DNA of 36,242 bases from Patescibacteria group bacterium (lineage in GTDB: Bacteria > Patescibacteriota > Minisyncoccia > Minisyncoccales > Staskawiczbacteraceae). The position numbers and the translations under genes were made by a program. The stretch's first letter is position 1. Each line of letters opens with the position of its first letter. The notes under the pieces were generated by a model. The model had not been told where the DNA came from. It did no database searches and saw nothing but the letters and a program-made list of their open reading frames with translations. Below, piece after piece: positions 2,511-7,337 of this stretch. The stretch covers positions 1-36,242 of the forward strand of contig JAKLDQ010000001.1 of the NCBI GenBank assembly GCA_022703425.1. Direction: 5' to 3'.

Positions 2511-4058
2511 ATGAGCAACGAAATAATAGATAAAATCAAACAAGCCATCGAGGGCTACAAAGAAAGCCCCGAGTGGGAGGAAATCGGCAAGGTTGTGGAG
2601 GTCGGAGACGGAATTGTTCGGATTTCCGGATTGAAAAATGTGCAATCTCAGGAAGTATTAACAATCGAAACCGAGAAAGAGAAAGTCCGCGCCGTTGCCT
2701 TAAACCTTGAAGAAGATTCTGTAGGAGCTTTGGTTTTGGGCGAACAAGGAGCCGTAAAATCAGGACAGACAGTAAAAAGAACAAAACAGCTTTTATCTAT
2801 TGCTGTGGGCGAACAGCTTCTCGGAAGAGTTGTTGACCCCTTTGGAAATGCTTTGGACGGCAAGGGCCCGATATTTTCAGAAAAGGACAAAAAAGATATA
2901 TATAATCTCGAAAATGATGCCCCGAACGTTCTTGCGAGAGAATCTGTAAACTATCCTCTGCACACCGGGATTAAAGCAATCGACTCGATGATTCCTATCG
3001 GCAGGGGACAGAGAGAATTGATTATCGGCGACAGGCAGACAGGAAAAACCGCGATTGCTCTGGACATGATTATCAATTCTGCATCGGCGAACACTTCGGG
3101 AGACAAATCAGCAGACAAACCTGTTGTATGCATTTACGTTGCAATCGGGCAAAAAGAATCCAAAATTGCAAAAATTGTTGAGACATTAAAAAAGAACAAT
3201 GCGTTTTCTTACACAATTGTTGTTTCTGCATCAGCATCTTCTCCGGCATCATTCTGGTATCTCGCTCCGTTTGCAGGATGCGCAATCGGCGAATATTTCC
3301 GTGACAAAGGAAAAGACGCTCTTGTAATTTACGACGACCTTTCAAAGCACGCCTGGTCATACAGGCAGATTTCTCTGCTTTTGAGAAGACCGCCGGGACG
3401 TGAGGCATATCCGGGAGATGTATTTTATCTGCACTCAAGACTGCTTGAAAGAGCGGCAAAACTGAACAAAGAAAAAGGCGGAGGCTCGCTTACGGCAATT
3501 CCGATAATTGAAACACAGCTCGGCGACGTTACAGCATATATTCCGACAAACGTGATTTCAATCACCGACGGCCAGATTTACCTTGAATCAGATTTGTTTT
3601 ATCAGGGAGTGCGTCCGGCTGTAAACGTTGGACTTTCTGTTTCCCGCGTGGGATCTTCTGCGCAGACAAAGGCAATGAAAAAAGTTGCCGGAAAGTTGAG
3701 GCTGGAATTGGCGCAGTTCCGCGAATTGCAAACATTCGTTCAGTTTGCGTCTGATGTTGACGAAACAACAAAACAAAGAATCAACAAGGGAAGGATTATC
3801 ACCGAAATTTTAAAACAGCCCGACCTGGCTCCCGCATCTTTTGAAAAGCAGGTTTTGGTTTTGTATGCGGCATTGAACGGATATTTTGATAGATTCTCTC
3901 CGGAGCAAATGCACGATGTTGAGAAAAAATTTATTGAATACATTGAAAATTTAAATAAAGATTTATTGAATAAAATAAGGGAGAAGAGAGAAATTTCAGA
4001 AGACATTGAAAAACAGATAAAAGAGGCAATTGGAAAGTTCATTGAGAGCGTTAAATAG
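2511..4058 (+). CDS. atpA: ATP synthase F1 subunit alpha
   Basis: The 515-residue non-catalytic nucleotide-binding subunit is full length. The Walker A motif GDRQTGKT lies at about residues 172-179, followed by the [31 protein letters not shown] core, and the arginine finger is in [11 protein letters not shown] at about residue 379. It starts 11 bp after atpH. Directly after its stop codon lie a 40-bp perfect palindrome and a minus-strand cassette that separates it from atpG, which is unusual because atpA and atpG are nearly always adjacent. Confidence 0.97.
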
Positions 4059-4061
4059 TTG

Positions 4062-4101
4062 TTTTTATTTGCTACTGAATTAATTCAGTAGCAAATAAAA
4101 A
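4062..4101. repeat. 40-bp perfect palindrome after atpA
   Basis: Two 20-bp arms meet with no spacer (4062-4081 with 4082-4101, centre GAATT/AATTC). It begins 3 bp after the atpA stop. In the atp direction it gives a hairpin with U at the 5' side and A at the 3' side, which is not a terminator. In the minus direction its first five T residues form the U-tract of the terminator hairpin next to it, so a minus-strand transcript could end in two stacked hairpins. Confidence 0.9.
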
Positions 4102-4125
4102 ACCCGTGATGCCGAGCATCACGGG
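4096..4125 (-). terminator. Terminator of the minus-strand cassette between atpA and atpG
   Basis: CCCGTGATGC pairs with GCATCACGGG (4103-4112 with 4116-4125), 10 bp with a 3-nt loop. Read on the minus strand it is followed by TTTTTTATTT, a good intrinsic terminator. On the plus strand it is followed by TATGAGATTGG, without a T-tract, so atp transcription should pass through it. Confidence 0.85.
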
Positions 4126-4138
4126 TATGAGATTGGAA

Positions 4139-4291
4139 TTATTTGGACAGTTGGGATTGTGAAGCCCAGAATTTCATCCAAGTTCTCATGCAGAGCACGC
4201 AAGAATTAGCTCTAGCGAGCATTTCTTTCATTTTCTGTTTGTCGCCCTTTACATTTGCAAGTTCTTGCTGAGTCAGACAATGGTGATCCAC
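4139..4291 (-). CDS. Possible 50-residue protein, second gene of the atpA-atpG cassette
   Basis: An open frame from GTG at 4291 to TAA at 4139 ends 14 bp before the minus-strand terminator and follows the membrane-protein gene by 49 bp. The product is mostly helical and polar (LTQQELANVKGDKQKMKEML), then NSCVLCMRTWMKFWASQ with a CxxC-like CVLC motif. No ATG is available before residue 21, and the ribosome binding site is weak (AGAG about 5 bp upstream). I recognise no family. The frame fills the space between its neighbour and the terminator, which favours a real gene, but it may also be a 3' UTR. Confidence 0.4.
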   Translation of the reverse strand: MDHHCLTQQELANVKGDKQKMKEMLARANSCVLCMRTWMKFWASQSQLSK

Positions 4292-4340
4292 TTTGTTCTC
4301 TTTCTAACAGAAAATTGTTGTCAATTTTATATGCACTTTC

Positions 4341-4559
4341 TTATCTATTCTGGGCGAGAATTGCCGAGATGGCGACGGCGAAACCGGTGCCGGTTCCCAG
4401 AAATCCCGCAATGCTAATCAGGATGTGCGAGTGCATGCATCCAATTGAGAAAATGATACCGCCAAAGCAGATCAAAAAGATGGCAACGGCAGGCACTACG
4501 ATCAAGAGCAGAATCCAGCGAAGGATTCCCAAAACCGTTTCAAGTATACAGGAGTACAT
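4341..4559 (-). CDS. Small membrane protein encoded head-on inside the atp operon
   Basis: A 72-residue protein with two strongly hydrophobic helices (about residues 10-36 and 46-68) around SIGCMHSHI. A near-ideal ribosome binding site, GGAGGTG (complement of 4564-4570), sits 4 bp before the ATG, and a TTGACA/TATTGT promoter lies 50-75 bp upstream on the same strand. No homologous family is recognised. It sits antisense between atpA and atpG. A role connected to the ATP synthase (assembly factor, atpI-like or regulator) is a guess from position. An overlapping plus-strand frame lacks such signals. Confidence 0.7.
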   Translation of the reverse strand: MYSCILETVLGILRWILLLIVVPAVAIFLICFGGIIFSIGCMHSHILISIAGFLGTGTGFAVAISAILAQNR

Positions 4560-4606
4560 GTTTCACCTCCAAAGAAGGGGGCTAGTTTACAAGGAACAAC
4601 ATAATT

Positions 4607-4635
4607 ACAATATCATATAGATTTTATAGTGTCAA
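4607..4635 (-). promoter_or_regulatory. Minus-strand promoter of the atpA-atpG cassette
   Basis: Read on the minus strand, TTGACA (4635-4630), a 17-bp spacer and TATTGT (4612-4607). The predicted start is near 4600, 40 nt before the ATG of the small membrane protein. The -35 box ends six bases before the atpG ATG, so polymerase bound here would compete with the start of atpG. Confidence 0.65.
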
Positions 4636-4640
4636 GTATA

Positions 4641-7030
<2,390 letters not shown>

Positions 7031-7046
7031 AAGATTGTTTTTGAAT

Positions 7047-7262
7047 TTACTGGACGGGAAATTCGAAGTGTATGAGAGAGTGCCAGAGGTCTGAGTCGTC
7101 GCCTTCTATATGAATGCGAAGGTTGTGTGAATCAACGCCATCGACTTTGACATTATTCGCCGTTCCTCTGATTTTCAGAGCAACTGGCGGATTCAGAAGT
7201 ACGTTTCCGTCCGTTTGCCGAAAACTTTGCGTCATTCCGATAATTTGTCTTGGCTTGAGCAT
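7047..7262 (-). CDS. Small protein encoded head-on between atpD and atpC
   Basis: A 71-residue protein without membrane helices, with alternating hydrophobic residues that suggest beta strands (NVLLNPPVALKIRG, NVKVDGVDSHNLRIHIEGDD). GGAG lies 6 bp before the ATG, a TTGACT/TATATT promoter 48-75 bp upstream and a terminator 17 bp after the stop, so it is a complete transcription unit. No family is recognised. The layout repeats that of the atpA-atpG cassette but the two proteins are unrelated by eye. Confidence 0.6.
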   Translation of the reverse strand: MLKPRQIIGMTQSFRQTDGNVLLNPPVALKIRGTANNVKVDGVDSHNLRIHIEGDDSDLWHSLIHFEFPVQ

Positions 7263-7309
7263 AGCAATCTCCGGGCAGGTTGGAAAAGAGCAGTTTATTC
7301 ATATCTCGC

Positions 7310-7337
7310 AATATATCATATTTAAATAAAAAGTCAA
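7310..7337 (-). promoter_or_regulatory. Minus-strand promoter of the atpD-atpC cassette
   Basis: Read on the minus strand, TTGACT (7337-7332), a 16-bp spacer and TATATT (7315-7310). The -35 box ends directly against the atpC ATG at 7338. The spacer end and -10 (AATATGATATATTG) resemble those of the other cassette (TATATGATATTG). Confidence 0.65.

Follow-up and report, generated by a model that had tools for sequence, protein, structure and literature searches.

The junction between atpA and atpG in the genome analysed here is best explained as carrying an autonomous single-gene cassette, placed head-on in the atp operon, at a site that stays occupied while the carried gene is replaced. We put the probability of this reading at about two in three. 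Judged by its sequence, this junction seems to serve as a slot that acquired genes fill in turn, and not as the seat of an ATP synthase regulator. The evidence comprises how the unit is built, its return in related genomes, the constant head-on placement of the small cassettes and the lack of kinship among their contents. To this come a shifted composition, the exchange of one cassette for another between sister species, and a homologous ORF pair under purifying selection.

The window, i.e. the whole stretch of 36,242 nt that was analysed, belongs to a 720 kb genome in 32 contigs; among named taxa, Candidatus Staskawiczbacteria (Paceibacterota) are closest to it. The atp genes are encoded on the plus strand in the order atpB-E-F-H-A-G-D-C, and a gap of 582 bp separates atpA from atpG. 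As listed in Table 1, this gap harbors on the minus strand all parts named in the original prediction (promoter, GGAGGTG, 72-aa ORF and terminator), and the complete unit was reproduced in none of 3000 dinucleotide shuffles of the gap. An ORF of at least 72 aa with an ATG and a Shine-Dalgarno sequence (SD) alone was obtained in 5 of 3000 such shuffles. Promoter-like matches taken alone were at chance level in the region, so that the argument leans on how the parts combine and on the return of this combination in related genomes. The position of the transcription start was placed by inference. As had been stated before, the T-tract of the terminator is confined to the minus strand, and a search for a plus-strand terminator across the gap found none. 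Greedy ORF calling skipped the cassette, having probably settled on a spurious 121-aa ORF of the plus strand, and a composition-based gene finder recovered it. Between the atpA stop codon and the terminator lies a perfect palindrome, TTGCTACTGAATTAATTCAGTAGCAA, which was found twice in the genome, after atpA (4062-4101) and, as a further copy of its 26-bp core, after a tRNA gene (G000:C1:109176-109201).

Table 1. Features at the atpA-atpG junction and at a second cassette site of the window.
Feature	Position	Strand	Remarks
atpA	2511..4058	+	flank upstream of the cassette
Perfect 40-bp palindrome	4062..4101	none	between atpA stop and cassette terminator
Intrinsic terminator	4096..4126	-	11-bp stem at 4126-4102, then T6 on minus strand only; dG -18.6 kcal/mol
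Possible second ORF, 50 aa	4139..4291	-	GTG start, weak SD, three Cys; stops 12 bp ahead of terminator
72-aa ORFan	4341..4559	-	ATG at 4559; hydrophobic segments at residues 18-36 and 46-64
Short 5' leader	4560..4601	-	possible pairing of one part with the SD; fold predicted at -8.9 kcal/mol
Shine-Dalgarno GGAGGTG	4564..4570	-	
Sigma70-type promoter	4607..4635	-	TTGACA 4635-4630, 17-nt spacer, TATTGT 4612-4607; TG precedes -10; -35 lies 5 bp from atpG start codon
atpG	4641..5600	+	flank downstream of the cassette; no SD directly 5' of its ATG
Second head-on cassette, same design (atpD-atpC)	7003..7337	-	promoter 7337-7310; 71-aa ORFan at 7262-7047 with SD CGGAG; terminator ~7030-7003

The 72-aa product had been described as a two-helix membrane protein. 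Its two hydrophobic segments agree with this description, which rests on hydropathy; the single-sequence AlphaFold model (one long helix, pLDDT 78.6, pTM 0.45) is uninformative and decides nothing. The Cys-containing 50-residue peptide of the original prediction stays no more than possible: its ORF is present with three Cys, and its start codon and poor SD make it a weak candidate. Neither ORF could be assigned to a family. The 72-aa protein matched no Pfam family above the cut-off and gave only weak low-complexity matches in 36 family genomes and 247 order genomes, and for the 50-aa ORF no homologue was found in Pfam or PHROG. Several identities of the cassette genes were tried and rejected: an AtpI-like accessory subunit of the ATP synthase on the missing Pfam match of the 72-aa protein, a viral origin since neither this protein nor the ORF of L115/L116 had relatives in IMG/VR viral contigs and the window ORFs had no PHROG match, and defence genes since the window ORFs had no PADLOC match. 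Rfam gave no match at the window cassette. The GC content at third codon positions (GC3) of the 72-aa ORF was 0.60, compared with 0.42 for atpA and 0.35 for atpG, and the ORF scored low for codon usage under the host model. This low score, like the chance level of promoter matches, is what would be expected of a chance ORF in a spacer or of an assembly artefact. However, no shuffle reproduced the unit and its architecture recurs in 17 other, independently assembled genomes, so that such an origin is scarcely credible.

The junction was then compared across the Staskawiczbacteria clade (n = 25: the window, L109-L117, L119-L130, L136, L157 and L163). Strict automatic detection caught a minority of the cassettes, and the others were read from ORF lists and sequences. 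At 18 of the 25 junctions we found a small ORF in a head-on unit, the gaps there measuring 326-1475 bp. Near-empty gaps of 3, 15, 46, 80 and 105 bp were also found, and two junctions held plus-strand genes only (an NYN-like gene in L123 and a 231-aa gene in L125). Outside the clade the spacing of atpA and atpG is mostly 0-50 bp, and two Yanofskybacteria also show head-on ORFs at this site (L138, seen by eye, and L153). Both the tight outside spacing and the empty clade sites bear out the earlier claim that the cassette splits a normally close gene pair. Its location is also not random, as atpA-atpG is by far the most occupied junction within the atp operon, the other atp junctions being mostly shorter than 180 bp.

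Promoters and terminators were scored in 17 units; the L130 ORF, outside this scoring and the GC3 values given below, can be seen in its sequence. Fifteen of the 17 gave a promoter match, and a scan offered weaker candidates for the remaining two. Terminator-like hairpins with a T run behind them were likewise scored in 15 units, the one in L136 being weak. In L109 and L117 imperfect terminator-like hairpins are visible. A good SD stands ahead of most cassette ORFs, and in many species just a few bp separate the cassette -35 element from the atpG start.

All 18 small cassettes at the site are head-on. This constancy might indicate that head-on transcription itself is selected, with collision or antisense RNA lowering or timing the expression of atpGDC and the ORF being a replaceable passenger. 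The closeness of the -35 element to an atpG without an obvious SD would fit such a role. On the other hand, close relatives do with empty sites of 3, 15 and 46 bp, a passenger would need neither strong SDs nor the purifying selection seen on a homologous pair, and the orientation could have been passed on from one founding insertion. We consider selection for interference unlikely.

The contents of the slot differ strongly between species. In an all-against-all comparison of 20 cassette ORFs only L115/L116 (E ~1e-21) and L128/L157 (E ~1e-7) were related, one of these two pairs being 36% identical. The L130 ORF, translated by eye, entered this comparison and the PHROG search three residues too long. 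The ORFs encode membrane peptides, Cys-rich Zn-ribbon-like proteins and soluble proteins of 49 to 131 aa with differing compositions; a hydrophobic segment is present in about half of them and absent in about half, and several are Cys-rich. The 72-residue frame is not conserved in relatives, an outcome that had been named beforehand as counting against the prediction; the plus-strand frame is equally unconserved, and what has been kept is position, orientation and architecture.

Such a pattern could in principle arise from a single ancestral cassette gene that diverged beyond recognition, with no swapping. The constant site, orientation and architecture, the partly similar promoter sequences and the two homologous pairs would be in line with this. 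The strongest evidence for a replacement of contents over mere divergence comes from L109 and L136, the closest species pair and sisters on the tree. Although their atpA flanks are 85% and their atpG flanks 89% identical, the slot encodes a 55-aa membrane peptide in one species and a soluble, Cys-rich protein of 84 aa in the other, and between the flanks the promoter region alone is still recognisably similar. The spread in ORF length and composition, as well as the occurrence of one leader ahead of unlike ORFs at several loci (see below), also speak against divergence from one gene, which appears rather unlikely. An exact donor, an empty site or a recombination breakpoint within one species was not found, the closest pair being two species.

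Under the preferred reading of a refilled slot, the composition of the cassette ORFs supports an outside source. Their GC3 ranged from 0.39 to 0.82, mostly far above the host, compared with 0.15-0.51 in the neighbouring atpA; in L109 the values were 0.68 for the ORF and 0.16 for atpA. The shift was not clear in L157 and weak in L111. For the L115/L116 pair a dN of 0.14 and a dS of 0.76 were obtained (omega ~0.19), indicating purifying selection. Given this excess of dS over dN and the good SDs, the cassette ORFs are probably real genes, with transcription and translation predicted from sequence.

Cassettes were also found at other sites. Further head-on cassettes of the atp operon lie at atpF-atpH (L109) and at atpD-atpC (window and L116). 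At the tsaD-valS junction of Staskawiczbacteria (L219-L248) head-on cassettes with varied ORFs were present, many species having the -35 element some 40 bp away from the start of valS; other species are empty there. A strict scan of ~552 kb of the 720-kb window genome yielded 5 head-on, 3 co-directional and 3 other cassettes, and a relaxed scan found none in shuffled gaps. The orientation bias genome-wide was weak, with 8 head-on versus 5 co-directional cassettes under strict detection in three genomes. Cassettes are thus dispersed, and by these sequence scans a fixed head-on orientation belongs to certain sites and is no genome-wide rule; given this weak bias, the fixed orientation at atpA-atpG may be merely inherited.

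The recurrence at other operon junctions also bears on the proposal that the 72-aa protein acts on the ATP synthase, for which no support was obtained, the slot ORF being unrelated between species. As a dedicated regulator or assembly factor, the protein would have been placed in the operon for co-regulation. Its position and its pair of hydrophobic segments would suit such a factor, as would the marked bias of cassettes towards atpA-atpG. Against it, head-on orientation gives no co-expression, the family and order genomes returned only the weak low-complexity matches mentioned above, relatives fill the slot with ORFs of other kinds, soluble and Cys-rich ones among them, and similar cassettes occupy tsaD-valS and other places. 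This role is highly improbable, and a direct link to the ATP synthase was rejected on the lack of both homology and conservation of the protein.

Some of the cassettes have a leader in common. The sequence GGCAGCUAUGCC-linker-AUAGC lies directly 5' of the SD in ten cassettes from atp, valS and one further locus (L112, L113, L115, L116, L130, L217, L219, L224, L234 and L240), and unlike small ORFs carry this leader at several loci. This shared leader can fold as an H-type pseudoknot and is a candidate RNA element: 98.8% of pairs were kept, three pairs were changed on both sides, and 2 of 500 shuffles did as well. Rfam gave no match at the leaders of L017, L018, L019, L115, L130 and L015. The pseudoknot leader is absent from the window cassette and from the loci scanned in its own genome, and no second copy of the window cassette's own leader was found in the loci examined. 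It is possible, although doubtful, that Staskawiczbacteria more generally keep expression sites in core operons, where the positions of promoter, leader and terminator persist and the small ORF is swapped from a shared higher-GC pool. This would be an unrecognised arrangement by which Patescibacteria acquire and express genes, in some cases with a pseudoknot leader beside the ribosome-binding site. In the literature searched, which covered few subscription papers, no account of such sites in Patescibacteria was found.

A cassette consists of a promoter, a leader, an SD, one or two small ORFan ORFs and a one-way terminator; in the proposed mechanism it would be expressed from its own promoter. 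Since the terminator is predicted to act on the minus strand only, atp transcription would be expected to run through it, which would make the insertion tolerable; with its terminator facing the opposite way, a foreign gene could be expressed without halting the operon. New cassettes may enter when DNA is taken up and recombines homologously with the operon genes on either side. We infer this route because ComEC and DprA are both encoded in the window genome, ComEC is frequent in CPR (86% of genomes; PMC6744442) and competence has been put forward as one gene-acquisition route in Patescibacteria (PMC12455944). The cassette proteins would then provide conditional accessory functions unrelated to the ATP synthase.

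The cassette resembles phage morons in its anatomy and minimal mobile elements in its behaviour, with membership in neither being claimed. A moron is a single gene, acquired horizontally, that has a promoter and a terminator to itself (PMC2147016). Like morons, the cassette has, by sequence, a sigma70-type promoter and an intrinsic terminator around a single small gene, its composition is often foreign, and relatives lack it in the same gap (3, 15 and 46 bp in the clade, mostly 0-50 bp outside). Unlike a moron, it is located in the chromosomal atp operon and not in a phage or prophage, no viral homologue was found, its site is reused with different genes, and it is head-on at atpA-atpG. In the minimal mobile elements of Neisseria (Saunders and Snyder, 2002; defined in PMC3082526), as here, two conserved genes enclose whole-gene cassettes that differ by lineage, and no integrase or transposase was found among the ORFs of the head-on cassettes examined. 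In contrast to Neisseria, where strains differ, the variation here is across species of one phylum, and each cassette is a tiny, self-sufficient transcription unit lying within an operon in a fixed, head-on direction. Minimal mobile elements are incorporated through DNA uptake and homologous recombination in the flanks; for the cassettes such an entry is a proposal, made in view of ComEC and DprA and of the replaced block between the conserved flanks of the sister species. Integron cassettes are similar in that small ORFan cassettes turn over at a fixed site, but here single cassettes occupy many sites, each with its own promoter. An integron was rejected, as the window genome has no IntI integrase above the cut-off and only below-cut-off matches to tyrosine recombinases.

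Patescibacteria have small genomes with many genes of unknown function. If the reading is true, refilled slots in core operons would be a testable route by which these cells gain and express new proteins while essential operons stay intact, and a catalogue of the slots would tell where to look for acquired small genes. It would also call for caution, as an operon neighbour in these genomes may have no functional tie to the operon.

Other genes were observed in some of the gaps. In L112 (L018) and L113 (L019) minus-strand tRNA-like genes adjoin atpG, one scoring 41 bits as tRNA-Sec (cut-off 47) and one 34.6 bits as tRNA (cut-off 29); ARAGORN calls neither. Plus-strand NYN-domain-like genes lie at the atpG start in L113 (L019), L115, L116 (L017), L123 (L024) and L126, the Pfam match being shown on the L116 copy. 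In L115, L116, L123 and L126 they are preceded by partial copies of the atpG 5' end, which suggests that these genes entered by insertion with duplication.
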